Positions 15,014 through 43,739 of a stretch of DNA of 64,000 nt are shown here, piece after piece. The stretch spans positions 620,001 through 684,000 of the forward strand of contig NZ_SSOC01000001.1 of NCBI RefSeq assembly GCF_004801295.1, written 5' to 3'. Source of the stretch: Pseudothauera nasutitermitis. GTDB taxonomy: Bacteria; Pseudomonadota; Gammaproteobacteria; Burkholderiales; Rhodocyclaceae. The notes below the pieces were generated by a model. That model was not told where the DNA came from. It was given only the letters and a program-made list of their open reading frames with translations, and did no database searches. Numbering within the stretch: the first letter of the stretch is position 1; each line of letters begins with the position of its first letter. A program made the position numbers and the translations under genes.

Positions 15014-16027
15014 CTAAGCTGCGGCGTGCAGCGGATCGAAGGTGTCGCGGTAGCCGAACAGGCCCACGGCGCCGCCGGTATGCACGAACACCACGTTCTC
15101 GTCCTGGCGGAAATGCCCCTTGCGGATCAGGTCGAGCAGGCCGGCGAAGCCCTTGCCGGAGTACACCGGGTCGAGCAGGATGCCTTCGGTGCGCGCGAGC
15201 AGGGTCAGGGCCTCGACCATCTCCGGGGTGGGTCGGCCGTAGCCGGCGCCCACGTAGTCGCTGTTGGCGCGTACCGCCTCGCGCGGCAGCGGTGCGGAAA
15301 CGCCCAGGTGCTGCAGCGTGCGGCTGGCCAGTTGCCACACCTTGTCTTCCTGCGCCGCACGTTCGGCGCGCACGCTGATGCCCAGCACCGGCACGCCGCT
15401 GTGGCTGCCCTGGAAGCCGGCCACCAGGCCGGCCTGGGTGCCGGTGCTGCCGGTGGCGTGCACCACGTGATGCACCACGATGCCGGCCGCGTCGGCCTGC
15501 TGCAGGATTTCCTGCGCGCTCGCCACGTAGCCCAGCGCGCCGATGTGGTTGGAGCCGCCGCCCGGAATGGCGTAGGCCTTTTCGCCCTGTTCGCGCAGCC
15601 GCGCGGCGTACTGTTCGACCTCCGCGTTCATGTCCAGCCCGGCCGGGCGGTGTTCCAGCCGCGCGCCGAACAGGCGGTCGAGGAACACGTTGCCGCTGTT
15701 GCGGTATTCCACGCTGCCGTCGGCGATGCGCGCTTCCAGCAGGGCGGTGCATTGCAGCCCCAGGCGGGCCGCGGCGGCGGCAGTCTGGCGCACGTGGTTG
15801 GATTGCGTGGCGCCGTGGGTGACGATGTGCGTGGCGCCCTGGGCCAGGGCGTCGCCGAGCAGGAATTCCAGTTTGCGCGTCTTGTTGCCGCCGGTGGCCA
15901 GCCCGGTGCAGTCGTCGCGTTTGATGTACAGGCGCGGGCCGCCGAGCTGTTCGGTGAGCCGGGGCAGGAATTCCAGCGGCGTGGGGGCGTGGACCAGGCG
16001 GACGCGGGGGAAGCGGGCGAGATGCAT
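15014..16027 (-). CDS. cuyA: PLP enzyme of the D-cysteine desulfhydrase / L-cysteate sulfo-lyase family
   Basis: The ATG at 16027 (GGAG Shine-Dalgarno 5 bases before) gives 337 residues starting M-H-L-A-R-F-P-R. The PLP lysine is K49 in A-T-G-G-N-K-T-R-K-L-E, and the substrate-binding S-N-H-V-R-Q-T-A-A-A-A-A helix follows near residue 77. The family includes ACC deaminase, D-cysteine desulfhydrase (DcyD) and L-cysteate sulfo-lyase (CuyA, cysteate to pyruvate, ammonia and sulfite). The linked sulfonate-type ABC transporter and hydroxyacid dehydrogenase favour CuyA, but DcyD activity cannot be excluded from sequence. Confidence 0.82.
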   Translation of the reverse strand: MHLARFPRVRLVHAPTPLEFLPRLTEQLGGPRLYIKRDDCTGLATGGNKTRKLEFLLGDALAQGATHIVTHGATQSNHVRQTAAAAARLGLQCTALLEARIADGSVEYRNSGNVFLDRLFGARLEHRPAGLDMNAEVEQYAARLREQGEKAYAIPGGGSNHIGALGYVASAQEILQQADAAGIVVHHVVHATGSTGTQAGLVAGFQGSHSGVPVLGISVRAERAAQEDKVWQLASRTLQHLGVSAPLPREAVRANSDYVGAGYGRPTPEMVEALTLLARTEGILLDPVYSGKGFAGLLDLIRKGHFRQDENVVFVHTGGAVGLFGYRDTFDPLHAAA

Positions 16028-16049
16028 GAAAACTCCGGGCAATGAACGG

Positions 16050-16808
16050 TCAGGTGGTGGTGCGTGGTTGTTGCTGCCACCAGCGCACGCAGGCGCGTGC
16101 CAGGGCGCGGGTGGCGTCGATTTGCGCGGGCAGGCCAGCGGGGTCCAGGCGGGCGAGAGCGGGCGGCACTTCGGTGCAGGCCAGCAGCAGGCGTTCCGCG
16201 CCGCGTTCGGCGAGGCGGGCGGCGGCCTCGCCGAGCAGGCGGGCGCCGCGCTCCAGGTCGCCGGCCTTCACGGCGTAGCAGCCCGGGGTGAACCAGGCGT
16301 CGAATTCGTCGTCGCGGTTGTGCAGCACCTCGATGCCGCGCGCGCCCAGGCGCTGCTGGTAGAAGCCGGCACGCAGCGTGCCTTGCGTGGCGAGCAGGCC
16401 CACCCGGGCGGGGGCCGGGCCATCGGCCAGCCCATCGGACAGTACCTCGGCGACGGCGTCGGCGATGTGGATCAGCGGCGCGCGGCTGTGCGCCGCCAGC
16501 GTGTCGAACCAGATGTGCGCGGTATTGCACGGCATGGCGATACAGCCCGCGCCGATGGCGTTGAGGCGGGCGATGCCGGCGTGCATCGCGGGCAGCGGCG
16601 AAGGGCCGTCGCCGGCGACGAAGCGCTGGCGGTCGGGAATCTGCGCGACGTTGTGGGCGACCACCGGCACGTGGTCCTGGTCGATGCCCGCCGGGGTTTC
16701 CTCGATGATCTTGGCGAGCAGATCCACGGTGGCCAGCGGCCCCATGCCGCCGAGCACGCCGACGAAGGGGCCGAGGACCGCGCTGGCGTCTGCGTGCATG
16801 CTGCTCAT
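16050..16808 (-). CDS. Aspartate/glutamate racemase family protein
   Basis: The product has 252 residues with both catalytic cysteines of the family: C94 in A-M-P-C-N-T-A-H and C211 in L-L-A-C-T-E-V. The N-terminal G-V-L-G-G-M-G-P-L-A-T motif is typical. Its ATG overlaps the stop of the ABC permease gene (ATGA), so the two are translationally coupled. Beside a cysteate lyase-like gene it could interconvert D- and L-cysteate (an aspartate analogue with a sulfonate); this is inference. Aspartate racemization is the default reading. Confidence 0.85.
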   Translation of the reverse strand: MSSMHADASAVLGPFVGVLGGMGPLATVDLLAKIIEETPAGIDQDHVPVVAHNVAQIPDRQRFVAGDGPSPLPAMHAGIARLNAIGAGCIAMPCNTAHIWFDTLAAHSRAPLIHIADAVAEVLSDGLADGPAPARVGLLATQGTLRAGFYQQRLGARGIEVLHNRDDEFDAWFTPGCYAVKAGDLERGARLLGEAAARLAERGAERLLLACTEVPPALARLDPAGLPAQIDATRALARACVRWWQQQPRTTT

Positions 16809-17686
16809 GCCTGGCGCTGCATGCCCCAGCGCCGCACCGTGAAGCGTTCGAGCACGTTGAACACCAGGTTCTCGACGATGAGGCCGATGAGGATCACCGC
16901 GACCAGGCCGGCGAACACGCGGTCGGTGTACAACTCGTTGCGGTTCTGGAAGATGTACCAGCCCAGGCCGCCCTGGCCGGAGGAAGCGCCGAACACCAGC
17001 TCCGCGGCGATCAGCGTGCGCCAGGCGAAGGCCCAGCCGATGCGCAGGCCGGCGAGGATGGACGGCAGCGCCGCCGGCACCAGGATCTGCAGCACGTAGC
17101 GCAGCCCGCTCAGGCCGTAGTTGCGCCCGCCCATGCGCAGGGTTTCCGAGACGCCGAGAAAGCCGGAGTAGGTATTGACGGCCAGCGCCCACAGCACCGA
17201 GTGCACCAGCACGAAGATCAGGCTGCCTTCGCCCAGGCCGAACCACAGCAGGGCCAGCGGAAGCAGCGCGATGGCCGGCAGCGGGTTGAACATGGCGGTG
17301 AGCGTGGACAGCAGGTCGCGCCCCAGTTGGGTGGAGACGGCCAGCGTGGTCAGCACGAAGGCCGCGACGATGCCGATCAGATAGCCCTTGGTCAGCACCA
17401 GCAGCGAGCGCCCGGCGCGGTCGAACAGCTCGCCGCTGACCAGGCCGTCGAAGAAGGCGGCGGCGGTCTGCAGGAAGCTGGGCAGCAGCAGATCGTTGTT
17501 CTGCCAGCGTGCGGCGATTTCCCACAGCAGCGCGAGCACGGCGAGCACCAGCGCCTTGCGCAGCCAGCCCTGCTGCCACAGGCGCTGGTGCAGGCGCAGG
17601 GGGATCTCGGCGGGCAGATCGTCGAGCGGTTCCAGCGGGCGTTCGTATTCCGGGCGCCGCGCCAGTGCGGTGGTCGGGGTGGTCAT
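16805..17686 (-). CDS. ABC transporter permease, sulfonate/taurine (SsuC/TauC) type
   Basis: The product has 293 residues from the ATG at 17686, with about six transmembrane helices and the binding-protein-dependent permease loop (Y-V-L-Q-I-L-V-P-A-A-L-P-S-I-L-A-G-L-R-I-G). It belongs to the nitrate/sulfonate/taurine importer family. Its ATPase (17796-18743) and binding protein (18747-19781) are immediately upstream in the same direction. Confidence 0.88.
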   Translation of the reverse strand: MTTPTTALARRPEYERPLEPLDDLPAEIPLRLHQRLWQQGWLRKALVLAVLALLWEIAARWQNNDLLLPSFLQTAAAFFDGLVSGELFDRAGRSLLVLTKGYLIGIVAAFVLTTLAVSTQLGRDLLSTLTAMFNPLPAIALLPLALLWFGLGEGSLIFVLVHSVLWALAVNTYSGFLGVSETLRMGGRNYGLSGLRYVLQILVPAALPSILAGLRIGWAFAWRTLIAAELVFGASSGQGGLGWYIFQNRNELYTDRVFAGLVAVILIGLIVENLVFNVLERFTVRRWGMQRQA

Positions 17687-17795
17687 GTCGGAGACTCCGT
17701 GGCTAGGGTCTGTTGCCCATGAAGCGCATCGCAACAGGCCCTAGATCTGCGCCCGGTTGGGCGGTGGCGCGACCGCCGGGGATAGTGTGCCTGCC

Positions 17796-18743
17796 CTAAA
17801 GTGCAAAGCGCAGATCGGTGGGCGAGAGCAGCTGCGCAGGGTCGGCGCGCCCCGGTGGCGGCGCGTCGGGGAACAGCAGGTGGTGGATGCGCTGCACGGT
17901 GTTCTGGAAGCGTTCGCTGCCCAGCCCGGCGAGGTCGAAATCGGCGGTGTCCAGTTCGGCGCGCACGCGTCCCGGGTGCGGGGAAAGCAGCAGCACGCGG
18001 TTGCCGACGATCACCGCTTCCTCGATGGAATGGGTGACGAACAGCAGGGTGAAGCGCACGTCGTCCCACAGCGCCAGCAGTTCTTCCTGCATCTTGCGGC
18101 GGGTCAGCGCGTCGAGCGCGGCGAACGGCTCGTCCATCAGCAGGATCTTGGGCTGCATGGCCAGCGCGCGGGCAATCGCCACGCGCTGCTTCATGCCGCC
18201 GGACAGGGTATGCGGGTAGGCTTCGGCGAAGGCTGCCAGACCCACCTTGTCCAGATAGTGCAGCGCGCGCTCGGCGGCTTCCCTGCGTCCCAGCGTGCGC
18301 GAGGCGAGCAGCGGGAACATCACGTTCTGCTTCACCGTCTTCCAGGGCGGGAGCTGGTCGAACTCCTGGAACACCACGATGCGGTCCGGGCCGGGGCCGC
18401 GTACCCGTTGGCCGTCGAGCAGGATTTCGCCGTCACGCGGACGCAGAAAGCCGGCCACCGCCTTGAGCAGCGTGGATTTGCCGCAGCCCGAGGGGCCGAG
18501 CAGCACGAAGCGGTCCGCCGGCAGCACGTCGAAGCTGACCTTGTGGGTGGCGCGCACCACGCTCTGCGCGGTGCGGTACTCCAGTCCCACGTTGTCGACG
18601 TGCAGCAGCGGGGCCGGCGCGCTGCCCGCCTCGGCGGCAGGGGGAGGGGCCGCCTGCAGGGCCGCGCGCCGGCCGGTGTCCGCGGCGGCAGCCGGCGGCG
18701 CGTCGACGGCGGAAGCCGTCGCGCGCAATTGCCGTGCACTCAT
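17796..18743 (-). CDS. ABC transporter ATPase, sulfonate/taurine (SsuB/TauB) type
   Basis: The 315-residue protein has Walker A G-P-S-G-C-G-K-S-T, Q-loop V-F-Q-E-F-D-Q-L-P-P-W, signature L-S-G-G-M-K-Q-R and Walker B I-L-L-M-D-E-P-F-A-A-L-D. A Pro/Ala-rich N-terminal extension of about 45 residues precedes the nucleotide-binding domain. The P-P-W in the Q-loop region is common in the nitrate/taurine subfamily. It starts 3 bases after the binding-protein gene; 109 bases separate it from the permease. Confidence 0.9.
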   Translation of the reverse strand: MSARQLRATASAVDAPPAAAADTGRRAALQAAPPPAAEAGSAPAPLLHVDNVGLEYRTAQSVVRATHKVSFDVLPADRFVLLGPSGCGKSTLLKAVAGFLRPRDGEILLDGQRVRGPGPDRIVVFQEFDQLPPWKTVKQNVMFPLLASRTLGRREAAERALHYLDKVGLAAFAEAYPHTLSGGMKQRVAIARALAMQPKILLMDEPFAALDALTRRKMQEELLALWDDVRFTLLFVTHSIEEAVIVGNRVLLLSPHPGRVRAELDTADFDLAGLGSERFQNTVQRIHHLLFPDAPPPGRADPAQLLSPTDLRFAL

Positions 18744-18746
18744 CGT

Positions 18747-19781
18747 TCAGCTGCCGGACGCGGTCAGCGGATCGTCGAAGAAGTAGTCCTTCCACGACGC
18801 CGGCTTGTTCTTGATGGCGCCCACGTCGAAGAGGAATTCGGCCAGCTTGTAGGTGTTGCTCGGCGCGGTGTTGAAGCGGATCTCGGGGTTTTCCAGGATG
18901 CGGATGAGGAAATCGCGATCGATCTTGGCGCCGGTGACACGGATGTAGGTGTCGGCCGCCGCCGCCTTGTTGGCGGCGATGAACTCGGAGGCTTCCTTCA
19001 GCGCCGCCTGGAAGGCCGCGTAGGTTTTCGGGTTTTCCTGGCGGAATTTCTCGGTGGCGTACAGCGCGGTGGGCGAGTTGGGACCCAGCACGTCATAGGA
19101 ATTGAGCACCACGCGCACGTTGGGGTTCTCCAGCGCCTGGTACTGGAACGGCGGATTGGAGAAATGCGCAGTCAGTTCGGTGCCGCCCGAGATCAGCGCG
19201 GCGGTGGCGTCCGGGTGCGGAATCGCCACGCTGAACTTGTCGAGGCGGTTGAACTGGTCCTTGCCCCACTTCTGCGCCACGGCATATTGCAGGAAGCGCG
19301 ACTGTACCGACACGCCGACGGCCGGCAGCGCGATGCGGTCCTTGTCGCTGAAGTCCTCGATGCTCTTGACGTTCGGGTTGTTGGTCAGCAGGTAGTAGGG
19401 GAATTCACCCAGCGAGGCCACGCCGCGCACGTTCTGGCGGTCCTTGGTGCGGTCCCAGATGGTCAGCAGCGGGCCGATGCCGGCACCGGCGATGTCGATG
19501 TTGCCGGACAGCAGGGCATCGTTGATCGCCGCGCCGCCGGACAGGCGGGCCCATTCCACCTGGATGTCCACCCCGGCGGACTTGCCGTGCTTCTCGATCA
19601 GGTTCTGATCGCGCACCACGTTGAGCAGCAGGTAGACGATGCCGAACTGTTCGGCGATGCGGATCTTGCCTTCGGCATGCGCGGGCGCGGCCACGCCCAG
19701 CGTGCCGGCGGCGATGCCGAAGCTGAGGCCAAGGGCGCCGAGCAGGCGGCCGAACTTGCGGGAAAGGATGGGGGCTTGCAT
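18747..19781 (-). CDS. Periplasmic substrate-binding protein of sulfonate-type ABC importer (SsuA/TauA-like)
   Basis: This 344-residue protein has a Sec signal peptide ending A-A-P-A-H-A and an NMT1/SsuA-type body. The family's A-A-I-N-D-A-L-L-S-G-N-I-D-I-A-G-A-G segment is near residue 75. The ATG at 19781 follows a GGAGT Shine-Dalgarno and starts directly at the signal peptide. The first gene of the minus-strand import operon, it lies downstream of an AT-rich promoter region. The ligand is unknown; neighbours suggest a C3 sulfonate such as cysteate or sulfolactate. Confidence 0.88.
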   Translation of the reverse strand: MQAPILSRKFGRLLGALGLSFGIAAGTLGVAAPAHAEGKIRIAEQFGIVYLLLNVVRDQNLIEKHGKSAGVDIQVEWARLSGGAAINDALLSGNIDIAGAGIGPLLTIWDRTKDRQNVRGVASLGEFPYYLLTNNPNVKSIEDFSDKDRIALPAVGVSVQSRFLQYAVAQKWGKDQFNRLDKFSVAIPHPDATAALISGGTELTAHFSNPPFQYQALENPNVRVVLNSYDVLGPNSPTALYATEKFRQENPKTYAAFQAALKEASEFIAANKAAAADTYIRVTGAKIDRDFLIRILENPEIRFNTAPSNTYKLAEFLFDVGAIKNKPASWKDYFFDDPLTASGS

Positions 19782-19821
19782 GGGACACGGACTCCAGGGG
19801 AACAAGGTCCGGCCGATTGTA

Positions 19822-20956: not shown

Positions 20957-20986
20957 GTCCGGCGGCGGGGGCCGCCGGACTTTTTT
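20957..20986 (+). terminator. Strong intrinsic terminator with no upstream + strand gene
   Basis: A perfect 10-bp stem (GTCCGGCGGC with GCCGCCGGAC), loop GGGG, is followed by TTTTTT. The T-run is only on the + strand side. The nearest gene upstream (19899-20705) is on the other strand, so the terminator must end a non-coding or leader transcript, or insulate the encapsulin promoter. Confidence 0.8.
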
Positions 20987-21088: not shown

Positions 21089-21111
21089 GCTTATAAAACA
21101 TATGGATAAGC
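21089..21111 (+). promoter_or_regulatory. LysR-type dyad GCTTAT-N11-ATAAGC upstream of encapsulin
   Basis: The inner bases give T-N11-A, the classic LysR-family binding geometry, within a 6-bp dyad. It lies about 91 bases upstream of the encapsulin ATG. CysB/Cbl-type LysR regulators control sulfur-starvation genes in proteobacteria and use TTAT/ATAA-rich sites, so control by such a regulator is plausible. The dyad is seen; the regulator is inferred. Confidence 0.4.
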
Positions 21112-21201
21112 TTCACAGAAAAAATTCTTAGCCCTATCCTCGAACATGCATTCCGGCTGTGCCGGAAACCCGAACATCACTGACCGTAACGGAGCATCAA
21201 C

Positions 21202-22131
21202 ATGGCCAAGGAATCCCTGATCCATACCGCGCTGGGCGACGTCGCCGCCCGCCAGCTGGCGAACGCGACCAAGACCGTCCCGCAGATGTCCAGCATCACC
21301 CCGCGCTGGCTCACCCACCTGCTGCACTGGCTGCCCGTGGAGGCCGGCATCTACCGTGTGAACAAGGTCAAGGACGCCGATTCGGTGGAAGTGGACTGCT
21401 CCGGCCGCGACGAGCGCGAACTGCCGCAGACCTTCGTGGATTACGAGGAAAGCCCGCGCGAGTACATGCTGTCCGCGGTGAATACCGTGCTCGACGTGCA
21501 TACCCGCGTGTCGGACCTCTACAGCAGCCCGCACAACCAGATCGCCGAGCAACTGCGCCTGACCATCGAGACCATCAAGGAGCGCCAGGAAAGCGAACTG
21601 ATCAACAACAAGGAATACGGCCTGCTGGCCAACGTACACGCCAACCAGCGTCTGAAGACGCGCGGCGGCGCGCCCACCCCGGACGATCTGGACGAACTGC
21701 TGGTGCGCGTGTGGAAGGAACCCGGCTTCTTCCTGGCACACCCGCGCACCATCGCCGCCTTCGGCCGCGAATGTACCCGGCGCGGCGTGCCGCCCCCGAC
21801 GGTGTCGCTGTTCGGCTCGCAGTTCATCACCTGGCGCGGCGTGCCGCTGATCCCGTCCGACAAGATCGGCATCGAGGACGGCAAGTCCAGCATCCTGCTG
21901 CTGCGCACCGGCGAGAGCCGCCAGGGCGTGGTCGGCCTGTACCAGCCCAACCTGCCGGGCGAACAAAGCCCCGGCCTGTCGGTGCGCTTCATGGGCATCA
22001 ACGACCGCGCCATCGCCTCCTATCTGGTGTCGCTGTACTGCTCGCTGGCCGTGCTGACCGAAGATGCGCTGGCCGTGCTCGATGACGTGGAAGTGGGCAA
22101 GTACCATGCGTACGAACACACCTACGCCTGA
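21202..22131 (+). CDS. Family 2A encapsulin shell protein (SrpI-like)
   Basis: The 309-residue protein, starting M-A-K-E-S-L, has the length and sequence character of the SrpI/MMPI family 2A encapsulins: an N-terminal arm (residues 1-30), R-V-S-D-L-Y-S-S-P-H-N-Q near residue 115, the N-K-E-Y-G-L-L-A-N segment near 135 and W-R-G-V-P-L-I-P-S-D-K near 210. Such HK97-fold proteins self-assemble into protein nanocompartments in the cytoplasm. Family 2A shells package a cysteine desulfurase, and precisely that gene overlaps the 3' end here by 26 bases. Sulfur storage or sequestration is the known role in characterised systems. Confidence 0.92.
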   Translation: MAKESLIHTALGDVAARQLANATKTVPQMSSITPRWLTHLLHWLPVEAGIYRVNKVKDADSVEVDCSGRDERELPQTFVDYEESPREYMLSAVNTVLDVHTRVSDLYSSPHNQIAEQLRLTIETIKERQESELINNKEYGLLANVHANQRLKTRGGAPTPDDLDELLVRVWKEPGFFLAHPRTIAAFGRECTRRGVPPPTVSLFGSQFITWRGVPLIPSDKIGIEDGKSSILLLRTGESRQGVVGLYQPNLPGEQSPGLSVRFMGINDRAIASYLVSLYCSLAVLTEDALAVLDDVEVGKYHAYEHTYA

Positions 22132-23854
22132 TCCGGCGGGCCTCGGCCTGCCCGATACGGCGACGCTGCAGCGCCTGGCCAACGAGTTCTTCGCCTCGTT
22201 GCCGGGCAGCCAGCAGGAAGCGCCGCGCGCGCCGCTGCCGGCGCCGGACCGCTTCGCCACCGCCTCGGCGGTGAGCGCCAGCCCCACCGGCACCGGCCAG
22301 GTGCCGGCGCTCGCGCCCGCCGCTGCTTCGCTGGCCTCGGCCGAACCCGCGCTGCCGCCCCTGCCGCACGACCCCAGCCTGCTGCACGGCAGCCGGCTGG
22401 TGCCGGGCGGGGTGGATCCAGTGCTGTTCGGCGTGCCCGGCGAACAGGAACTGCGCGGTCTGCTGGCGCCGTCCCTGCCGGCCTCGCCCAAGGGCGTGGA
22501 GCCGGCACGGGTGAGCAGCGCGCCGTCGTACTACTTCCTGGAAAGTGCGCGTTTCGGCGAACCGGGCATCCGCGTGCCCGGCTATGAGCATGACGCGGCC
22601 CAAGCGGTGCCGCAGGCCGCGCGTCCGCCGCTGGACGTGAACCTGATCCGGCGCGACTTCCCCATCCTCTCGGAACGGGTCAATGGCCGCCAGCTGGTCT
22701 GGCTGGACAACGCCGCCACCACCCAGAAGCCGCAGTCGGTGATCGACCGCATCAGTTACTTCTACGAGCACGAGAATTCCAACATCCACCGTGCCGCGCA
22801 TGAGCTGGCGGCGCGCGCCACCGACGCCTACGAGGCCGCCCGCGAGAAGGTGCGCGGCTTCCTCAACGCGCGCTCGGTGAATGAAGTGGTGTTCGTGCGC
22901 GGCGCCACCGAGGCCATCAACCTGGTGGCGCAGAGCTGGGGGCGGGCCAACATCCGCGAGGGCGACGAAATCGTCGTCAGCCATCTGGAGCATCACGCCA
23001 ACATCGTGCCGTGGAAGCATCTGGCGGACGAGAAGGGCGCCAAGCTGCGCGTGGCTCCGGTGGATGAAAGCGGCCAGATCATCCTGGACGAGTACGCCAG
23101 GCTGCTCGGCCCGCGCACCAGGCTGGTGGCCTTCACCCAGGTGTCGAACGCGCTGGGCACCATTACCCCGGCCAAGCGCATGGTGGAGCTGGCCCACGCG
23201 GCCGGCGCCACGGTGCTGGTCGATGGCGCGCAGTCGGTCTCGCACATGGCGGTGGACGTGCAGGATCTGGACGCGGACTTCTTCGTGTTCTCCGGGCACA
23301 AGGTGTTCGCGCCCACCGGCATCGGCGTGGTGTACGGCAAGGAAGCCATCCTCAACGCCACGCCGCCGTGGCAGGGCGGCGGCAACATGATCCGCGACGT
23401 CACCTTCGAGCACATCGAGTACCACGACGCACCGGGCCGCTTCGAAGCCGGCACCGGCAACATCGCCGATGCGGTGGGGCTGGGTGCGGCCATCGACTAC
23501 GTCAGCGCGCTGGGCATGGACAACATCGCGCGCTACGAGCATGAGTTGCTGCTGTACGCCACCCGTCTGCTCAAGGACGTGCCGGGCCTCACCCTGGTGG
23601 GCACGGCGGCCGACAAGGCCAGCGTGCTGTCCTTCACCCTGGCCGGCTTCAAGACCGAGGACGTGGGCGCGGCGCTCAACAAGGAAGGCATCGCGGTGCG
23701 CTCCGGCCACCACTGCGCCCAGCCCATCCTGCGCCGTTTCGGCCTGGAAGCCACGGTGCGCCCGTCGCTGGCGTTCTACAACACCTGCGCGGACGTGGAT
23801 GCGCTGGTGAGTGCGCTGTATCGTCTGGTGAGCGGGCGCCGGCCGATCTACTGA
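22106..23854 (+). CDS. Encapsulin cargo: SufS-like cysteine desulfurase with N-terminal targeting extension
   Basis: The 582-residue protein starts at the ATG at 22106, inside the end of the encapsulin gene. Residues 1-175 are Pro/Ala-rich and low-complexity, with short hydrophobic or aromatic islands (N-E-F-F-A-S-L-P; P-V-L-F-G-V-P-G; Y-Y-F-L-E), typical of the disordered cargo-loading domain of family 2A. From about 176 it is a group II (SufS/CsdA) aminotransferase-class V enzyme: PLP Lys399 in F-S-G-H-K and persulfide Cys537 in R-S-G-H-H-C-A-Q-P. It converts cysteine to alanine and enzyme-bound sulfane sulfur, here presumably inside the shell. Confidence 0.93.
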   Translation: MRTNTPTPDPAGLGLPDTATLQRLANEFFASLPGSQQEAPRAPLPAPDRFATASAVSASPTGTGQVPALAPAAASLASAEPALPPLPHDPSLLHGSRLVPGGVDPVLFGVPGEQELRGLLAPSLPASPKGVEPARVSSAPSYYFLESARFGEPGIRVPGYEHDAAQAVPQAARPPLDVNLIRRDFPILSERVNGRQLVWLDNAATTQKPQSVIDRISYFYEHENSNIHRAAHELAARATDAYEAAREKVRGFLNARSVNEVVFVRGATEAINLVAQSWGRANIREGDEIVVSHLEHHANIVPWKHLADEKGAKLRVAPVDESGQIILDEYARLLGPRTRLVAFTQVSNALGTITPAKRMVELAHAAGATVLVDGAQSVSHMAVDVQDLDADFFVFSGHKVFAPTGIGVVYGKEAILNATPPWQGGGNMIRDVTFEHIEYHDAPGRFEAGTGNIADAVGLGAAIDYVSALGMDNIARYEHELLLYATRLLKDVPGLTLVGTAADKASVLSFTLAGFKTEDVGAALNKEGIAVRSGHHCAQPILRRFGLEATVRPSLAFYNTCADVDALVSALYRLVSGRRPIY

Positions 23855-23874
23855 GCGGCCCCGGCGGCACAAGG

Positions 23875-23913
23875 GGGAGCAGGGCCTGGCAACGGGCCTT
23901 GCTCCCTTTTTTT
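23875..23913 (+). terminator. Intrinsic terminator of the encapsulin operon
   Basis: GGGAGCAGGGCC pairs with GGGCCTTGCTCCC (one G-U pair), followed by TTTTTTT. It lies 21 bases after the desulfurase stop and ends the two-gene unit, showing that encapsulin and cargo form a compact operon. Confidence 0.85.
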
Positions 23914-24810: not shown

Positions 24811-25572
24811 GTGCAAAGCAAATCAAAACTCGAACTCGTCAGCGGCGCGCCGACGCCCTTGTACACCCAGCTCAAGGATCTGCTGCGCGGGCGCATCCTG
24901 GACGGCAGCTATCCGCCGCACAGCCGCATGCCCTCGGAACATGAACTGTGCGCGCACTTCGGCGTGAGCCGCATCACCGTGCGCCAGGCCCTGGGCGACC
25001 TGCAGAAGGAAGGGCTGATCTTCCGCATCCACGGCAAGGGCACCTTCGTCTCGCGCCCCAAGGCCTTCCAGAACGTCACTTCCCTGCAGGGCTTCGCGGA
25101 GGCGATGTCGTCCATGGGCTACGAAATCCTCAACCGCGTGCTGGACTTTTCCTTCGTGCCGGCCGATGCGCGCATCGCCGAACGCCTGGGCATCGCCGAG
25201 GGCGACGAGGTGGCGGCGATCCGCCGCGTGCGCCTGCTCAACCGCGAGCCGGTGTCGCTGGAGCTGACCTGGATTCCGTCGCCGCTGGCACGCCGTCTGG
25301 AGCATGCCGATCTGGTCACCCGCGATGTCTTCCTGATCCTGGAAAACGACTGTGAGACGCCGCTCGGCCATGCCGACCTGGCCATCGACGCGGTGCTCGC
25401 CGACGACGAACTCACCGAGGCGCTGCGCATCGAGGAAGGCGCGCCGGTGCTGCGCATCGAACGGCTGACCCACGACACGGCAGGCCGGCCGATCGACTTC
25501 GAACACCTGTATTTCCGCGGCGATGCCTTCCAGTACCGCCTGCGCACCGACCGCCAACGCAATGGAGCCTGA
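24811..25572 (+). CDS. GntR-family (HutC/UTRA) transcriptional regulator
   Basis: The 253-residue protein has an N-terminal winged helix (L-Y-T-Q-L-K-D-L-L-R-G-R; M-P-S-E-H-E-L-C; S-R-I-T-V-R-Q-A-L) and a C-terminal UTRA ligand-binding domain (about 90-245). The GTG at 24811 is the only start that leaves the HTH intact; no clear Shine-Dalgarno precedes it. The first gene of the block, it probably controls the ABC/AprA-like operon that follows 169 bases downstream. The effector is unknown. Confidence 0.88.
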   Translation: MQSKSKLELVSGAPTPLYTQLKDLLRGRILDGSYPPHSRMPSEHELCAHFGVSRITVRQALGDLQKEGLIFRIHGKGTFVSRPKAFQNVTSLQGFAEAMSSMGYEILNRVLDFSFVPADARIAERLGIAEGDEVAAIRRVRLLNREPVSLELTWIPSPLARRLEHADLVTRDVFLILENDCETPLGHADLAIDAVLADDELTEALRIEEGAPVLRIERLTHDTAGRPIDFEHLYFRGDAFQYRLRTDRQRNGA

Positions 25573-25652
25573 CATGCCCGAGGCAGCCCAGATCAGAACG
25601 TCCTGTCCCCGCGTGCGGTGCCGCTGTCCGCTCGGCGCCGCGCGGCGTGATG

Positions 25653-25670
25653 CCCGGCCCTGCGGCCGGG
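25653..25670 (+). other. Short GC stem-loop between regulator and transporter genes
   Basis: CCCGGCC pairs with GGCCGGG across a CTGC loop. There is no T-run. It lies in the 169-base leader of the binding-protein gene and could attenuate read-through from the regulator gene. Confidence 0.4.
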
Positions 25671-25741
25671 TGTCCGGCGTCCGGTGTCGGTAGGCAAGTT
25701 CAACCCACTCGGCAACCCATCACCGCATTCAGGGGATATTC

Positions 25742-27151
25742 ATGAAAATCGGAGCATTGCTCGCCGGCGCGGCTTTATCGCTGACCGCGCTCACGGCCTC
25801 GGCGCAGACCATTCGCGTCGCCATCGGCACCCAGGACACCACCATCAATTGCGCCACCGCCGGCCTGCTGGTGCGCGAACTCAATCTGCTGGAAAAGTAT
25901 TTGCCGCGCGACGGCAAGTACAAGGACGTGAAGTACGACATCCAATGGAAGAACTTCACCTCCGGGCCGCCGCTGACCAACGAGATGGTCGCCGACAAGC
26001 TCGACTTCGGCGTGATGGCCGAATTTCCCGGCACCCTCAACGTCACCGCCTTCCAGCGCGCCGGCAAGCGCAGCTTCTTCATCGCGCCGATTTCCGGCAG
26101 CGTGATCGGCAGCGGCAACGGCGTGGTGGTGCCGGTGAATTCGCCCGTGCAGTCGTTCGGCGAACTCAAGGGCAAGACCATCTCGGTGCCCTTCGGCTCC
26201 ACCGCGCACGGCGTGCTGCTGCGCGCCGTGGCCGCGCAGGGCTGGGACCCGGCGCGCGACGTGAATCTGATCTCGCAGGCGCCCGAGGTCGGCGGCTCCG
26301 CCTTGCAGGCCGGCAGCATCGATGCGCATGCCAACTTCGTGCCCTTCCCGGACCTGTTCCCGTTCCGCGGCTTCGCCCGCAAGATCTTCGACGGTTCGCA
26401 GACCAACGCGCCGACCTTCCATGGCGCGCTGGTCAATGCCGAGTACGCCGAGAAGTATCCGGAAGTCGTGGTGGCCTATCTGCGCGCGGTGCTGGAGGCC
26501 GAGCGCCTGTTCGTCGCCGAGCCGGAAAAGCACAGCGAACTGATCGCCAAGGTCGCCGGCATCGACGCCGAGGTGAACTACCTGTTCCACGGTCCGATCG
26601 GCCTGCAAACGCGCGACTACACGTGGAAGCCGGAGTTCTACAGCGCCATCGAGACCGCCATCAGCACGCTGCGCCTGCTCGACCGCCCGGTGGCCGATCT
26701 GAAACCGCAGGAACTGGTCGATGAACGCTACATCCGCGAGGCCTACCGGCTCTCCGGGCTGGACTACGAGGCGCGCCTGAAGGTGTACGACAAGCTGCCG
26801 CTGCAGGCCAGGGACGCGGCCAGCGGCGCGCAGATCACCGACTTCAAGAACGCCGCGCACCTCTGGCTGAAGGGGGAGCCCGGCGCGCGCCACTACGCCT
26901 CCCCGCAAGCCGCCCTGGCCGCGCTGAAGCAGGCCGAGGCCGCTGGCCAGGAAGCCCGCGTGGTGTTCGTGCATGACCGCAACACCGGGCTGAAGCTGTT
27001 TGCCAACCAGGCCTGGTACGTGCGCGACGGCAACGGGCTGGCGGCCTTCCTGCTCAAGGACGATGCCGAGGCGTGGGCCAAGTCCCATGGCGGCAGCGTG
27101 AATTCCTTCGCCGATGCGAAGAACGCGGCGGTGGCCGTCGCCAGCCGGTGA
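25742..27151 (+). CDS. ABC substrate-binding protein (NrtA/TauA-like) with NosL-like C-terminal domain
   Basis: The 469-residue protein is longer than usual for this family (about 320-400). A signal peptide (1-22, cleaved after A-S-A) is followed by an NMT1/NrtA-like binding domain to about residue 370. The last ~95 residues (A-H-L-W-L-K-G, F-V-H-D-R-N-T-G, A-E-A-W-A-K-S-H-G-G-S-V-N-S-F) resemble the beta-rich core and D-A-E-A-F/W-A-K-x-x-G-G motif of NosL-type proteins but lack the Cys-x2-Cys copper site. It heads an operon with permease, ATPase and AprA-like flavoprotein. The ligand is unknown; a sulfonate or other oxyanion is likely. Confidence 0.8.
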   Translation: MKIGALLAGAALSLTALTASAQTIRVAIGTQDTTINCATAGLLVRELNLLEKYLPRDGKYKDVKYDIQWKNFTSGPPLTNEMVADKLDFGVMAEFPGTLNVTAFQRAGKRSFFIAPISGSVIGSGNGVVVPVNSPVQSFGELKGKTISVPFGSTAHGVLLRAVAAQGWDPARDVNLISQAPEVGGSALQAGSIDAHANFVPFPDLFPFRGFARKIFDGSQTNAPTFHGALVNAEYAEKYPEVVVAYLRAVLEAERLFVAEPEKHSELIAKVAGIDAEVNYLFHGPIGLQTRDYTWKPEFYSAIETAISTLRLLDRPVADLKPQELVDERYIREAYRLSGLDYEARLKVYDKLPLQARDAASGAQITDFKNAAHLWLKGEPGARHYASPQAALAALKQAEAAGQEARVVFVHDRNTGLKLFANQAWYVRDGNGLAAFLLKDDAEAWAKSHGGSVNSFADAKNAAVAVASR

Positions 27152-27158
27152 GGCGCAG

Positions 27159-28019
27159 ATGAGCAGCGCGAAACTCGAACTCGCGCCGGCCGTGCCCCTG
27201 TCCCCAGCCACCGGCGGTTCCAGACCGCCGGCCTGGCTGGGGCCGGCACTGCGCTGGCTGCTGCGCCTGGGCTCGCTGGTCGCCTGTGTGCTGGTCTGGG
27301 AGTTTGCCGCCGCCAGCCGGCTGAATCTCGGCCTGGTGACTTTCGCCAACGTGCCGCCGCCCAGCGAGGTGGGGCCGGCGATCTGGAAACTGGTCAGTTC
27401 GCCGAAGTTTTCCAACCACGTCGGCGCCAGCCTCACCCGGGTGTTTTCCGGCTTCTTCGCCGCGGCCCTGGCCGGCGTGCTGCTCGGCCTGCTGGTCGGC
27501 CGCTCGCGCCGCCTGGAGGACGTGGTGATGCCGCCGCTCGAAGCGCTGCGGCCGATTCCGGCGGTGTCGTGGATTCCGTTGGCGATATTGATGTTTCCGT
27601 CCTCGGAGCTGTCGATGATCTTCATCACCTTCATCGGCGCGCTGTTCCCGGTGCTGCTCAACACCGTGCATGGGGTGCACGCGGTGGACGGCCGCCTGGT
27701 GGCCGCCGCGCGCAGCCTGGGCGCCGGGCGCATCGCGGTGCTGCGCGAGGTGGTGCTGCCGGGTGCGGCGCCCAGCATCGTCACCGGGCTGACCATCGGC
27801 ATGGGCACCTCGTGGTTCTGCCTGGTCACCGCGGAAATGATCGCCGGGCAGTACGGCATCGGCTACTACACCTGGGAGTCCTACACCTTGCAGAACTACG
27901 CGGACATCGTCGTCGGCATGGTGTTCATCGGCCTGTTCGGCATGGCCAGCAGCGCCGCGCTGCGCCGCCTGGGCGCACTGGCCACGCCGTGGTACCGGCT
28001 GCGGGAGAAGCAATCGTGA
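27159..28019 (+). CDS. ABC transporter permease (nitrate/sulfonate/taurine family)
   Basis: The product has 286 residues and six predicted helices, with the coupling loop A-A-A-R-S-L-G-A-G-R-I-A-V-L-R near residue 185. The ATG at 27159 follows the binding-protein stop by 7 bases. The stop overlaps the GTG of the ATPase gene. Confidence 0.88.
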   Translation: MSSAKLELAPAVPLSPATGGSRPPAWLGPALRWLLRLGSLVACVLVWEFAAASRLNLGLVTFANVPPPSEVGPAIWKLVSSPKFSNHVGASLTRVFSGFFAAALAGVLLGLLVGRSRRLEDVVMPPLEALRPIPAVSWIPLAILMFPSSELSMIFITFIGALFPVLLNTVHGVHAVDGRLVAAARSLGAGRIAVLREVVLPGAAPSIVTGLTIGMGTSWFCLVTAEMIAGQYGIGYYTWESYTLQNYADIVVGMVFIGLFGMASSAALRRLGALATPWYRLREKQS

Positions 28020-28864
28020 ATACCACCGCCACCCCGCAGGGGAACATCGAAATCCGCCATCTGGACATCCACTTCGGCCGCGGCGCGGCACGCTTCCAGG
28101 CGGTCAGCGACGTGGACATCCAGGTGCCCGGCGGGCAGTTCGTCTGCCTGCTGGGGCCGTCGGGCTGCGGCAAGTCCACCGTGCTGGGCGCGCTGGCCGG
28201 GCATCTGGCCCCCAGCCGGGGGGAATTGCGCCTGGACGGCGAGGCGATTTCCGGGCCGCACCCGGAACGCGGGCTGGTGTTCCAGCACCACACCCTGTTC
28301 CCGTGGAAGCGGGTGATCGACAACGTTGCCTTCGGCCTCAAGATGAAGGGGCTGGCACGCGCCGAACGCGAGGGCAGGGCGCGCGAACTGCTGCACCTGA
28401 TGGGCCTGGAAGGCTTCGAGCGCCACTATCCGGCGCAGCTCTCCGGCGGCATGCAGCAGCGTGTGGAAATCGCCCGCTCGCTGATCAACCGCCCGCGCGT
28501 GCTGCTGATGGACGAACCCTTCGGCGCGCTCGACGCGCAGACCCGGCTGCTGATGCAGGAACTGCTGCTCGACGTGTGGACCCGGGTGCGCACCACGGTG
28601 CTGTTCGTCACCCATGACATCGACGAGGCGCTGTTCCTCGCCGACCGCATCCTGGTCATGAGCGCCCGCCCGGGACGCATCATCGAAGACCTAGCGGTGG
28701 ATTTCGCCCGCCCGCGCGACGCGCTGCTGACCACCACCGAGGACTTCAACCGCCTCAAGCGCCATTGCATGGACCTGCTGCACCACGACCGCGGCGAACG
28801 GGTGCTCGAACGCCTGTCGCCGATCGGCGAGGCCAACGCCAAGTCATTGAGCTTCGCCGTCTGA
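28016..28864 (+). CDS. ABC transporter ATPase (nitrate/sulfonate/taurine family)
   Basis: The product has 282 residues with a GTG start overlapping the permease stop (GTGA). It has Walker A G-P-S-G-C-G-K-S-T, Q-loop V-F-Q-H-H-T-L-F-P-W, signature L-S-G-G-M-Q-Q-R and Walker B L-L-M-D-E-P-F-G-A-L-D. It completes the second oxyanion/sulfonate-type importer in the window. Confidence 0.9.
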   Translation: MNTTATPQGNIEIRHLDIHFGRGAARFQAVSDVDIQVPGGQFVCLLGPSGCGKSTVLGALAGHLAPSRGELRLDGEAISGPHPERGLVFQHHTLFPWKRVIDNVAFGLKMKGLARAEREGRARELLHLMGLEGFERHYPAQLSGGMQQRVEIARSLINRPRVLLMDEPFGALDAQTRLLMQELLLDVWTRVRTTVLFVTHDIDEALFLADRILVMSARPGRIIEDLAVDFARPRDALLTTTEDFNRLKRHCMDLLHHDRGERVLERLSPIGEANAKSLSFAV

Positions 28865-28916: not shown

Positions 28917-30644
28917 ATGGAAACACGCCATCTCGAAGCCGACGTGCTGGTCATCGGCGGCGGCACCGCCGGCCCCATCGCCGCCATCAAGGCCAAGGCG
29001 AAGAACCCGCAATTGAAGGTGCTGCTGCTCGACAAGGCCAACGTCAAGCGCGCCGGGGCCATCGCCGAAGGCATGGACAGCGTCAACAACGCCATCGTCC
29101 CCGGCTTCGCCACCCCCGAGCAGTACGTCAAGGAAATCACCATCGCCAACGATGGCATCGTCAACCAGGCGGCGATCAACGCCTACGCGGTGCGCAGCTA
29201 CGCCATGATCCGCGAGCTGGACGAGTGGGGGGTGAAGTTCGAGAAGGACGAAACCGGCGACTACGCGGTGAAGAAGGTGCACCACCTGGGCGCCTACGTG
29301 CTGCCCATGCCGGAAGGCTACGACGTCAAGAAGGTGATCTTCCGCCAGTTGCGCAAGCACGGCGTGCAGGTCTCCAACCGCCTGGTCACCACGCGCCTGC
29401 TGGTAGGCGAGGGCGGGCGCGTGGCCGGGGCGATGGCGCTGGACTCGCGCAGCGGCGAATTCGTCGTCATCCGCGCCAAGGCGGTGGTGCTGTGCACCGG
29501 TGCCGCCGGGCGGCTGGGCCTGCCCAGTTCCGGTTATCTGTTCGGCACCTACGAGAACCCCACCAACGCCGGCGACGGCTACAGCATGGCCTACCATGCC
29601 GGCGCGGAACTCTCCGGCCTGGAATGCTTCCAGATCAATCCGCTGATCAAGGACTACAACGGCCCGGCCTGCGCCTACGTCACCGGTCCGTTCGGCGGCT
29701 ACACGGTCAATGCCAAGGGCGAGCGCTTCATCAAGAGCGACTACTGGAGCGGGCAGATGATGCTGGAATTCTGGCGCGAGCTGGAAGGCGGCAACGGCCC
29801 GGTGTTCCTCAAGCTCGACCACCTTGCCGACGAGACCGTGACCCGCATCGAGAACGTCCTGCACATCACCGAACGCCCCACGCGCGGGCGCTTCCACGAG
29901 GGGCGCGGCACCGACTACCGCAGCGACCTGGTGGAGATGCACATCTCCGAGATCGGCCTGTGCGGCGGGCACAGCGCCTCCGGCGTGTGGGTGGACGAGC
30001 ACGCGCGCACCACGGTGCCGGGGCTGTATGCCGCCGGCGACCTGTGCAACGTGGCGCACAACTACATGCTGGGCGCCATGGTGTATGGCCAGATTGCCGG
30101 CGAGGACGCGGTGGACTTCATTGCCGGCAAGGATTTCGCCGGCTTCGACGAAGATCAGGTGGCGCTCGAACGCCAACGCGTGTTCGCCCCCCTGCTGCGC
30201 GCGGACGGCCTGCCCCCCACCCAGGTGGAATACAAGCTGCGGCGCATGGTCAACGACTACCTGCAGCCGCCCAAGGTCACCCGCAAGATGGAAATCGGCC
30301 TGCAGCGCTTTGCCGAGATCCGCGCCGACCTCGCCCAGTTGAAGGCGAACAACCCGCACGAACTGATGCGCGCCATGGAGGTGTACGCCATCCTCGACTG
30401 CGCCGAACTGGCCGCGCAAGCCTCGTTGTACCGCACCGAAAGCCGCTGGGGTCTGTACCACTACCGCGTCGAGTACGAAGGGCGCAACGATGCCGAGTGG
30501 TTCGCCTTCGTGCAGGTGAAGAAGGGTGCGGACGGCCGTCCGCACTGCTTCAAGCGCGCAGTGCCAGCGTATCTGTACCCCATCGATGCCTCCGAGCGCG
30601 ACGCCTACGACCGTCTGCGCTTCGAAGAGCCCGCAACCGTCTGA
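28917..30644 (+). CDS. AprA/AsfA-like FAD oxidoreductase (fumarate reductase/APS reductase superfamily)
   Basis: The 575-residue protein has the Rossmann FAD site V-I-G-G-G-T-A-G-P near residue 12. The fumarate reductase-type flavin domain (A-G-D-L-C-N-V-A-H-N-Y near residue 380) and a helical C-terminal domain follow. The segment A-G-A-I-A-E-G-M-D-S-V-N-N resembles APS reductase alpha rather than succinate dehydrogenase. It is followed 15 bases later by an AprB-like ferredoxin. AsfA/AsfB pairs with this layout are known from aromatic sulfonate desulfurization in proteobacteria; together with the ABC importer this is the best guess. True dissimilatory AprA is larger (about 620-660 residues). 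Confidence 0.78.
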   Translation: METRHLEADVLVIGGGTAGPIAAIKAKAKNPQLKVLLLDKANVKRAGAIAEGMDSVNNAIVPGFATPEQYVKEITIANDGIVNQAAINAYAVRSYAMIRELDEWGVKFEKDETGDYAVKKVHHLGAYVLPMPEGYDVKKVIFRQLRKHGVQVSNRLVTTRLLVGEGGRVAGAMALDSRSGEFVVIRAKAVVLCTGAAGRLGLPSSGYLFGTYENPTNAGDGYSMAYHAGAELSGLECFQINPLIKDYNGPACAYVTGPFGGYTVNAKGERFIKSDYWSGQMMLEFWRELEGGNGPVFLKLDHLADETVTRIENVLHITERPTRGRFHEGRGTDYRSDLVEMHISEIGLCGGHSASGVWVDEHARTTVPGLYAAGDLCNVAHNYMLGAMVYGQIAGEDAVDFIAGKDFAGFDEDQVALERQRVFAPLLRADGLPPTQVEYKLRRMVNDYLQPPKVTRKMEIGLQRFAEIRADLAQLKANNPHELMRAMEVYAILDCAELAAQASLYRTESRWGLYHYRVEYEGRNDAEWFAFVQVKKGADGRPHCFKRAVPAYLYPIDASERDAYDRLRFEEPATV

Positions 30645-30659
30645 TCAGGAAGCCGAAGC

Positions 30660-30893
30660 ATGTCCGTCCTCGTCAACCAGAATGTTGTCTCGGTGATCGT
30701 CGATCACGACAAATGCATCGCCGGCAAGGGCTGCCGGGTGTGCATCGACGTCTGTCCCACCGACATCCTTGCGCTCGACCAGGAGGACGGCAAGGTGAAG
30801 ATGGTGTACGACGAATGCTGGTACTGCCTGCCTTGCGAGCACGACTGCCCGACCAAGGCCATCCACGTTGAAATCCCCTACCTGTTGCGCTGA
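30660..30893 (+). CDS. AprB/AsfB-like 2x[4Fe-4S] ferredoxin
   Basis: The product has 77 residues. Cys cluster one is C19, C25, C28, C32 (C-x5-C-x2-C-x3-C-P); cluster two is C53, C56, C59, C63 (C-W-Y-C-L-P-C-E-H-D-C-P). The C-W-x-C spacing of the second site matches the AprB pattern. It would shuttle electrons to or from the flavoprotein just upstream. It ends 7 bases before the HEAT-repeat gene. Confidence 0.85.
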   Translation: MSVLVNQNVVSVIVDHDKCIAGKGCRVCIDVCPTDILALDQEDGKVKMVYDECWYCLPCEHDCPTKAIHVEIPYLLR

Positions 30894-30900
30894 GGCGGGC

Positions 30901-31866
30901 ATGCCGGAGTTCGAGGATCATCCCCTGCTCGGCGGACTGGCCGGGCTGCTCGCCCACGCAGACCCCGAAGTGCGCCGCATCGCCCTGTTGCAGGCCGCCG
31001 AACTGGTGGACGCCGACGACGTGGCGGTATTCGTCCACGCCAGCCGCGACGCCGATCCAGGCGTGCGCCTGGAAGCCCTGCGTGCGCTGGAAGGCAGCGC
31101 CGCGGCGGACGGCGTGGCCGCGCTGCTCGGCGGGCTGGCCGACCCGGACGCCGAAGTGCGCGAGGCCGCCGCGCTGTCGTTGGCCGAAATCCGCGACCCG
31201 GCGGCCGGCGCCGCACTGGTCGCCGCCTTCGACGGTGCCGGCTCCCCGGCGCGCGCGGCCATTCTGGGCGCGCTGCGCAAGCTGCGCGTAGCCGAGGCGC
31301 GGGCGCCGGCGCTGGCGGCGCTGGCCGACCCCGCGGCGGAAACCCGCCGGCAGGCGGTGGGCGTGCTGGCCTGGCTGCGCGACCCGGCGGCCTTGCCCGC
31401 GCTCGCCGCCGCCCTGAGTGATGGGGCCGCCGAAGTGCGGCGCGCCGCCGCCGGCGCCTTGAGCTACGCGGGCGGGAAGGCAGCAACCGTGCTGCCCGCA
31501 CTGCTCGGTGCATTGGCCGACGAGGACTGGCAGGTGCGCGAGGAAAGCGCGGAGACGCTGCGCAAGCTGGGCCATGCGGACGCCGCCGGCGGGCTGATCG
31601 CCGCGCTGCAAAGCGATGCGTTCTGGCAGGTGCGCCTGAAGGCCGCCTCCGCGCTGGGCGCCCTGCGCGCCGTTGCCGCCGTGCCCGCCCTGGCCGGCGC
31701 GCTGGAACACCCGGTCAGCAATCTGCGCAAGGAAGCCGCCGCCGTGCTCGGCGCCATCGGCGCCGCGGATGCCGCGCCGGCGCTGCGCGCCGCCCTGGAC
31801 GACCCCGACGTGGACGTGCGCAAGACCGCCGCGCACGCACTGGCCAGCCTGCGGGCCGCGCAGTGA
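30901..31866 (+). CDS. HEAT-repeat (PBS lyase-type) protein
   Basis: The 321-residue protein is almost entirely ~31-residue helical repeats of the type D-P-x-x-x-V-R-x-x-A-A-x-A-L-x-x-L, about ten in number. There is no signal peptide or transmembrane segment. Such proteins are scaffolds or cofactor-lyase-like factors. Lying between an Fe-S ferredoxin and a membrane Fe-S protein, it probably organises or matures the redox complex (inference). It has strong Ala/Asp/Arg bias and its stop overlaps the next GTG start. Confidence 0.82.
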   Translation: MPEFEDHPLLGGLAGLLAHADPEVRRIALLQAAELVDADDVAVFVHASRDADPGVRLEALRALEGSAAADGVAALLGGLADPDAEVREAAALSLAEIRDPAAGAALVAAFDGAGSPARAAILGALRKLRVAEARAPALAALADPAAETRRQAVGVLAWLRDPAALPALAAALSDGAAEVRRAAAGALSYAGGKAATVLPALLGALADEDWQVREESAETLRKLGHADAAGGLIAALQSDAFWQVRLKAASALGALRAVAAVPALAGALEHPVSNLRKEAAAVLGAIGAADAAPALRAALDDPDVDVRKTAAHALASLRAAQ

Positions 31867-33914: not shown

Positions 33915-33975
33915 TTTTCCCCTGCCGACGACCTGCGGTTTCGCCTGCTTCGTGCGACGATATATGTGACGCCCG

Positions 33976-35115: not shown

Positions 35116-35166
35116 CGCAAAAAAATTTCAGGTCGACCTGAGGGTTGTGCGGGCTCGTGCGACTTC

Positions 35167-35199: not shown

Positions 35200-35212
35200 T
35201 GGAGATCAACCC

Positions 35213-40299: not shown

Positions 40300-40347
40300 G
40301 GAACGTTGCTCCTTGGGTAATGGCGATTGAGACGGTGGAAGAGGGGT

Positions 40348-43701: not shown

Positions 43702-43739
43702 GTTCACCAGGCAGGGGCGGGGCGGTGGTCAGACCGGGG

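Follow-up and report, generated by a model that had tools for sequence, protein, structure and literature searches.

The 64,000-nucleotide stretch of the Pseudothauera nasutitermitis genome analysed here (contig NZ_SSOC01000001.1, positions 620,001 to 684,000 of the forward strand; hereafter the window, in whose own numbering all coordinates are given) carries two overlapping genes that encode the shell and the cysteine desulfurase cargo of a family 2A encapsulin. It is highly probable that the pair specifies a nanocompartment containing a SufS-type desulfurase, that its metabolic partners act in trans, and that the system would serve to buffer or store reduced sulfur. Read from the DNA and its translations, the identity of shell and cargo, the catalytic residues, both cargo motifs, the overlap of the genes together with their terminator, and a conserved upstream element are established. 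The features of the pair are as follows.

21202-22131, forward strand: family 2A encapsulin shell (SrpI-like), 309 amino acids, matched by NF041162, PF19307 and phmmer
22106-23854, forward strand: cargo cysteine desulfurase, 582 amino acids, matched by NF041166, TIGR01979 and 8kg1, with Lys399 and Cys537
22106-22630, forward strand: proline- and alanine-rich N-terminal extension of the cargo (amino acids 1-175), recognized by composition and motifs
23871-23910, forward strand: intrinsic terminator of the pair, a hairpin followed by a T run
21090-21113, forward strand: conserved 24-base element CTTATAAAACA-N4-GATAAGCTT with the dyad CTTAT-N11-ATAAG, recognized by conservation
20957-20980, forward strand: hairpin with TTTTTT after it, 5' of the conserved element, from a scan for terminator-like sites

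The shell gene runs from an ATG at 21202 to a stop at 22131 and has the 309 codons of the SrpI-like protein proposed in a first-pass annotation made from the DNA letters alone. Its product scores 545 bits against the curated NCBIfam model of the family 2A shell (NF041162, cut-off 380) and 369 bits against the Pfam SrpI-like model (PF19307). The two closest solved chains found by phmmer are SrpI (6x8m, 1.7e-159) and the Acinetobacter baumannii encapsulin (8t6r, 2.1e-159), and the protein is 77% identical to SrpI of Synechococcus elongatus. The SrpI residues F262 and Y273, which are placed near the cargo density in the available text of PMC8049743, are both kept as F263 and Y274. The first-pass annotation had suggested a hidden Markov model search and had named the lack of a match to the encapsulin HK97 fold as grounds for refutation; the shell matches the encapsulin models. 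Although it also passes the family 2B model (449 bits, cut-off 400; best stretch at positions 211-449 of the 450 in that model), its score with the 2A model is higher, and the 2A match spans that model's full length. A Pfam search of the 309-residue shell found no inserted cyclic nucleotide (cNMP)-binding domain (PF00027), which would mean 2B. By sequence, then, 21202-22131 encodes a family 2A encapsulin shell, and by analogy with its relatives the protein would form closed shells some 25 nm across.

For the cargo gene, the mechanically called reading frame begins at an ATG at 22064 (596 amino acids, 68-base overlap with the shell gene). The alternative ATG at 22106 gives a protein of 582 amino acids and exactly the 26-base overlap that had been claimed, and residue numbers here count from it. 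The cargo scores 894 bits against the NCBI family 2A cargo model NF041166 (cut-off 800), so that both members of the pair pass curated NCBI models, as expected of the shell and desulfurase first proposed. Its catalytic domain also passes the SufS model TIGR01979 (554 bits, cut-off 475), and its best solved chain is 8kg1 (6.4e-179). The catalytic residues are intact, as first read: Lys399 lies in an SGHK motif and Cys537 in an HHC motif, and among 42 cargos (the window's and those of 41 further loci) SGHK is present in all 42 and HHC in 41. On this sequence evidence, 22106-23854 encodes the matching family 2A cargo, a cysteine desulfurase of SufS type.

The extension of about 175 residues likewise has the composition attributed to it, with 34% proline plus alanine in amino acids 1-175 against 17% in the rest of the protein. 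It contains LQRLANEFF (amino acids 21-29) and SYYFLE (amino acids 141-146), which match the published LARLANEFFS and AASPYYFLDG, motifs found in most such cargos according to the available text of PMC8049743. In the same 42 cargos a YYF/YFL-type motif occurs in 40 and the strict L.N.FF in 15. Compared with two close relatives, the extension is 47-50% identical and the catalytic part 87-89%. This composition, the low conservation and the fast evolution fit the expectation for a disordered targeting region, and the extension is presumably disordered and shell-targeting.

The transcription unit is closed by its own terminator, in agreement with the first reading: the hairpin at 23871-23910 has a folding energy of -39.2 kcal/mol (z -4.6), and none of 200 shuffled sequences was as stable. 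It is absent from the list returned by a simple consensus scan for terminators. The claim of a regulated upstream region holds in part. The only sigma-70-like match (21112-21140; one found, mean 0.5 in shuffles) is no evidence by itself, but the element at 21090-21113 is kept in three species, namely the window's own (G000), a second member of the same genus (G001) and Rhodocyclaceae bacterium UBA2346 (L103), whose aligned upstream regions have a mean column identity of 74%. When 41 genomes were searched at zero mismatches, the element occurred at one place each in G000 and G001, both before the shell gene. With three mismatches allowed, two places in other genomes appeared, against four matches of a reversed control, and only exact occurrences are therefore meaningful. 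The dyad CTTAT-N11-ATAAG occurs at two places in the 4.72 Mb genome. The element is thus a candidate operator of the pair, with a dyad spacing that we take to recall LysR-type sites. When the dyad was surveyed in the 4-kb regions before 72 shells, a spacing of 11 came top (11 matches, against 4 in a downstream control), with spacing 13 close behind (9 upstream, 4 in the downstream control); because the two are nearly equal, we claim no family-wide operator. Further upstream, the hairpin at 20957-20980 is one of 4 sites found by a terminator-like scan (mean 2.7 in shuffles), and by eye G001 has a similar stem. It is possibly an insulator or attenuator. The gene upstream of it points the opposite way.

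The first-pass account of the locus identified the pair and overlooked genes for an acetyltransferase, a cysteine synthase and a rhodanese that lie detached from it in the same window. These genes and their immediate neighbours are as follows.

42757-43707, reverse strand: long serine O-acetyltransferase (EpsC type), detached partner (NF041874, 162 bits, cut-off 150)
48210-49196, reverse strand: cysteine synthase A, detached partner (TIGR01139, 457 bits, cut-off 351)
49240-49737, reverse strand: rhodanese-like protein, detached partner (MoeB, GlpE and MoeZ models, all under their cut-offs)
45536-48114, reverse strand: MetX-type acyltransferase and O-acetylhomoserine/O-acetylserine sulfhydrylase of the same cluster (NF001209, 357 bits, cut-off 331; TIGR01326, 703 bits, cut-off 495)
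39481-41860, reverse strand: MetNIQ-like ATP-binding cassette (ABC) importer adjoining the acetyltransferase (best models MetQ, MetI and MetN, all under cut-off)

The available text of PMC8346489 ranks serine acetyltransferases and rhodaneses first among the accessory genes enriched in such operons. In the window the long acetyltransferase is not directly upstream of the shell, the SrpI-type placement, and lies 18.9 kb downstream of the pair and convergent with it. Full-length homologues (at least 56% identity) occur in 13 of 61 genomes, the window's own included: in all 11 that have a cargo over the cut-off, again counting its own, and in 2 of the 50 others (G045 and G051; Fisher test ignoring kinship, 1.9e-10). 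We regard the acetyltransferase as an encapsulin partner because its distribution follows that of the cargo.

Neighbourhoods were compared in a wider set of shell loci. Within the window's order, 39 genomes were over the shell cut-off, one of them the window's own, and 37 of the other 38 were taken, leaving out G370, a second copy in G065 and a sub-cut-off match in G270. Together with five further relatives these gave 42 loci, 35 of them with full flanks. Adding 80 named loci, the best 80 of at least 555 confirmed and therefore not a random sample, made 122; two duplicates were dropped, and 30 of the remaining 120 had less than 8 kb on one side, which left 90 from all phyla. Since a simple gene caller missed the shell in two loci, the counts rest on tblastn. 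The controls were 80 regions at hand-picked positions in 33 of the same genomes.

Of the 35 full-flank loci of the order, 32 have the long acetyltransferase no more than 8 kb from the shell. In 31 of these it is encoded on the shell's strand at most 1.2 kb upstream, and in one (L085) it is downstream; L090, L092 and G001 have none within 8 kb. Over all 90 loci, 51 have the long acetyltransferase and 20 another acetyltransferase match within that distance, and none of the 80 control regions has the long form. The detached, convergent layout is common to three species; the gap measures some 0.8 kb in UBA2346, roughly 10 kb in G001 and 18.9 kb in the window. By eye, a regulator gene is apparent in the gap of UBA2346, and a taurine-type binding protein apparently follows the acetyltransferase. 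In one further genome (G036) acetyltransferase and pair are on separate contigs. Rhodanese homologues lie upstream of the acetyltransferase in many relatives, and in L062, L065 and L066 a set similar to the MetNIQ-like importer lies upstream of rhodanese and acetyltransferase. In the window, the MetX-type gene and the acetyltransferase are separated by genes for an acireductone-dioxygenase-like cupin and a phasin-like protein (43740-45479, reverse strand). Between the partner module and the pair, at 33378-37693 (forward strand), are genes for an extracytoplasmic function (ECF)-type sigma factor and a TonB-dependent siderophore receptor, with another gene (33976-35115) between these two.

The pair had been described as sitting among sulfonate importers and desulfonating enzymes, and two flanking gene sets bear on this.

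15014-19805, reverse strand: probable cysteate operon (SsuA-like binding protein, ATPase, permease, CuyB racemase, CuyA sulfo-lyase)
24811-28864, forward strand: GntR-type regulator and second sulfonate/taurine-type ABC importer (binding protein, permease, ATPase), under substrate-specific cut-offs

D-cysteate sulfo-lyase CuyA (538 bits, cut-off 450) and cysteate racemase CuyB (249 bits, cut-off 190) both exceed their thresholds, and the operon is syntenic in G001. Sets of CuyA and CuyB racemize cysteate and desulfonate it to sulfite, and the genes at 15014-19805 probably serve cysteate uptake, racemization and desulfonation to sulfite. The remark on desulfonating enzymes is borne out for CuyA, the sole clear one by sequence among the enzymes tested. 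That on importers stands in so far as both ABC importers are of the sulfonate/taurine/nitrate kind, with sulfonate or taurine models as best matches, but these are best matches only, under the cut-offs. CuyA over the cut-off is found in three of the 61 genomes (G000, G001 and G053), and in the genus, represented by six genomes, encapsulin cargo and CuyA occur in the same two.

Downstream of the pair, MgtC accompanies the GntR-type regulator and the second importer. The SsuA-like binding protein of that importer (25742-27151, forward strand) carries a C-terminal NosL match at amino acids 371-463 (24.4 bits, gathering threshold 24), a fusion that looks unusual; the strain carries nos genes as well. 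The importer is followed at 28917-33203 (forward strand) by genes for a redox system, with AprA/fumarate-reductase-like flavoprotein, small ferredoxin, HEAT-repeat and NapH-like proteins. At the window's edge (4-1005, forward strand) lies the C-terminal part of the nitrous-oxide reductase NosZ (326 bits, cut-off 625). From its genes, the host is plausibly a denitrifier, as the first-pass annotation had it.

We also asked how often such importers accompany other shells. Of 34 order-set loci, 10 have a sulfonate/taurine-type ATPase-permease module no more than 8 kb from the shell, against 3 of the 80 control regions with such a module (p = 0.0003). G001 (L098) was dropped from this count because it shares the window's synteny, and its regions remained among the controls. 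The second 40 controls were added after the result with the first 40 had been seen (10/34 against 2/40, p = 0.005). Scanning 33 neighbour proteins from 9 of the 10 module loci (none from L087) at E 1e-8 gave 8 matches to the SsuA family and 7 to TauA, which overlap, 4 to SsuD and 3 to TauD; cut-offs are shown for some of these models only, and Pfam agrees. The association of sulfonate importers with the shell is moderate. A literature search returned no paper joining encapsulin, desulfurase and sulfonate, and encapsulin with taurine gave a single paper, on microcompartments. The words sulfonate and taurine are missing from the main texts of PMC8049743 and PMC8346489; the neighbourhood tables of both papers sit in their supplements, and we therefore claim no novelty for the link.

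Gene identities, layout and conservation are observations, and each flux in the following scheme is one that we infer. By analogy with related systems, the extension would bind the inner face of the shell and dock the desulfurase inside, where the enzyme would convert cysteine to alanine and the sulfur would be held as persulfide or sulfane sulfur. Gene content suggests that sulfite from cysteate or other sulfonates may be reduced to sulfide, that the detached acetyltransferase and cysteine synthase would fix the sulfide into cysteine in trans and so feed the shell, and that the detached rhodanese would pass sulfane sulfur on, also in trans. The system would thereby buffer or store reduced sulfur during growth on cysteate or other organosulfur compounds as the sulfur source. 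The available text of PMC8049743 reports enhanced desulfurase activity on encapsulation, and that of a 2025 paper (PMC12407261) cites sulfur storage for encapsulated desulfurases.

Nothing was found against the identity of the pair, and several points weigh against the reading of its function. Knock-outs in S. elongatus had no growth defect according to the available text of PMC8049743, which tells against a storage role. The AlphaFold models are too poor for use alone: that of the shell, from a shallow alignment of 22 rows, has a mean predicted local distance difference test (pLDDT) score of 48, and that of the cargo, from 3 rows, a mean of 38 with values below 50 over amino acids 1-271, catalytic residues included. 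The importer subunits have no match over a substrate-specific cut-off, so their substrates are unproven; 24 of the 34 order-set loci have no sulfonate/taurine-type module within 8 kb; and when each of 12 families contributes a single locus, the sulfonate link weakens to a median p of 0.028 and a 90th percentile of 0.125. A cysteine synthase specific to the encapsulin was rejected, because homologues of 81-87% identity occur in six genomes that lack the cargo (G003, G005, G011, G022, G041 and G059). No operator shared by the pair and the detached partners was found: TTAT-N11-ATAA occurs once in the whole window and nowhere outside the element, which leaves their co-regulation through the dyad unsupported.

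The origin of the pair may add to this explanation. The pair could have been acquired from a clade II lineage, displacing a resident pair, and now work with a resident acetyltransferase of clade I, where clade II denotes Oxalobacteraceae- and Sphaerotilaceae-like rows and clade I most other members of the window's own family. We find this quite possible, if a little short of probable. The window, G001 and UBA2346 fall in clade II in the trees of both shell (66 rows; fork support 90, clade I fork starred at 99) and cargo (65 rows; 18-row fork starred at 99), and in clade I in that of the acetyltransferase (support 100/100). The trees drew on 30 of the 80 named loci, hand-chosen as proteobacterial and not all such loci, and rows lacking a match to shell or long acetyltransferase were dropped. 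The acetyltransferases also have a mean identity of 67.6% to clade I against 60.2% to others. Approximately unbiased (AU) tests reject a clade I placement of the three species in the shell tree (p = 0.02); in the cargo tree the outcome is borderline (p = 0.053). However, placing the acetyltransferase with clade II was not rejected, with p = 0.794 on the quick tree (68 rows), where the constrained tree even outscored the unconstrained one, and p = 0.478 on the careful one (67 rows, without the long branch L224). The clades were, moreover, named after the trees had been seen, and for shell and cargo the trees come from quick searches alone. As the AU tests allow a common placement, a foreign pair beside a resident acetyltransferase is suggested and not shown. 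In the trees, three Gallionellaceae-type loci (L074, L172 and L175) likewise join a shell of clade II to an acetyltransferase of clade I, and exchange of partners may thus have happened repeatedly.

A rival account gives the shell a different purpose. It would mainly restrain the desulfurase from draining cytosolic cysteine, with no storage, and the persulfide would go to the rhodanese for a few targets. Restraint is raised in the available text of PMC8049743 and the rhodanese part in that of PMC8346489. The window has a rhodanese, and one lies within 8 kb of 23 of the 90 full-flank shells against 1 of the 80 controls. The storage cited in PMC12407261 speaks for the opposite, and the other 67 loci have no rhodanese match within 8 kb at the threshold used. 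We consider restraint without storage a lesser possibility, rather less likely than the foreign origin. A little more doubtful still is the fullest form of the preferred sulfur-buffering explanation, in which the nanocompartment of this betaproteobacterial lineage would have become a sulfonate-linked sulfur store. In that form, a foreign pair with its own operator would neighbour the catabolic genes of cysteate and taurine type and cooperate in trans with resident genes for acetyltransferase, cysteine synthase and rhodanese. Sulfur would then pass from sulfonate through sulfite, sulfide and cysteine to the shell.

That the cargo serves iron-sulfur cluster assembly as the SufS of this genome, with the shell incidental, is very unlikely. 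The match of its catalytic domain to the SufS model is what this idea has in its favour; yet SufE and SufB/D gave no matches each in the window's own genome (control genomes were positive in 5 of 14 and 14 of 14), which makes a role in the SUF pathway unlikely, and the cargo has a shell-specific extension and a gene that overlaps that of the shell. We reject the SUF reading in its simple form, as SufB/D is absent from the genome search. The next matches to the cargo model in the genome, among six in all, score 123, 115 and 76 bits and are probably other desulfurases or aminotransferases. That the shell gene is a phage capsid remnant beside an ordinary desulfurase we dismiss as next to impossible: HK97-type capsids do come after the encapsulins in a fold search with the poor shell model, but at E 0.006 or worse, behind seven Protein Data Bank matches at E ≤ 0.001 that are all family 2 encapsulin chains with 8t6r first (the program also uses sequence, not structure alone), the encapsulin models are passed far above cut-off, and a cargo match lies within 8 kb in 90 of the 90 full-flank loci.

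For asking which sulfur source and which physiological role family 2A compartments have in nature, the position of this pair beside cysteate- and sulfonate-type genes suggests a growth condition, with cysteate or taurine as sole sulfur source. As the cysteine-making partners are separate, pair and partners could be deleted independently, and the conserved upstream element offers a handle on a regulator. Should the association with sulfonate uptake hold on a larger set, it would add to the published neighbourhood of acetyltransferases and rhodaneses.

Compared with known systems, the pair itself is ordinary and intact, of a kind described in 2021, and is thus not novel. One of its closest known relatives is SrpI with the desulfurase CyD on plasmid pANL of S. 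elongatus PCC 7942 (available text of PMC8049743). In addition to the shell identity given above, the catalytic part of the cargo is 70% identical to that of CyD; both systems have a SufS-type cargo with a long extension (about 225 amino acids in S. elongatus, and shorter, at about 175, in the window), and both residues near the cargo density are kept. As on pANL, genes for a cysteine synthase, an EpsC-type acetyltransferase and a rhodanese are present, but cysK, epsC, srpI, cyd and the rhodanese gene are contiguous and parallel there, whereas in the window the partners lie 19-25 kb away on the opposite strand. With SrpI, the cargo-loaded family 2A encapsulin of A. baumannii (8t6r) is the closest solved shell. 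That encapsulin reportedly stores sulfur. The family 2A operons of the same order (L061-L102) resemble the window in having a shell with an adjacent cargo, often with an acetyltransferase, rhodanese or cysteine synthase. They differ in their usual upstream acetyltransferase, which in the window, G001 and UBA2346 is detached and convergent. The additions made here to the known system are modest: a detached partner module, a conserved upstream element and a sulfonate setting.

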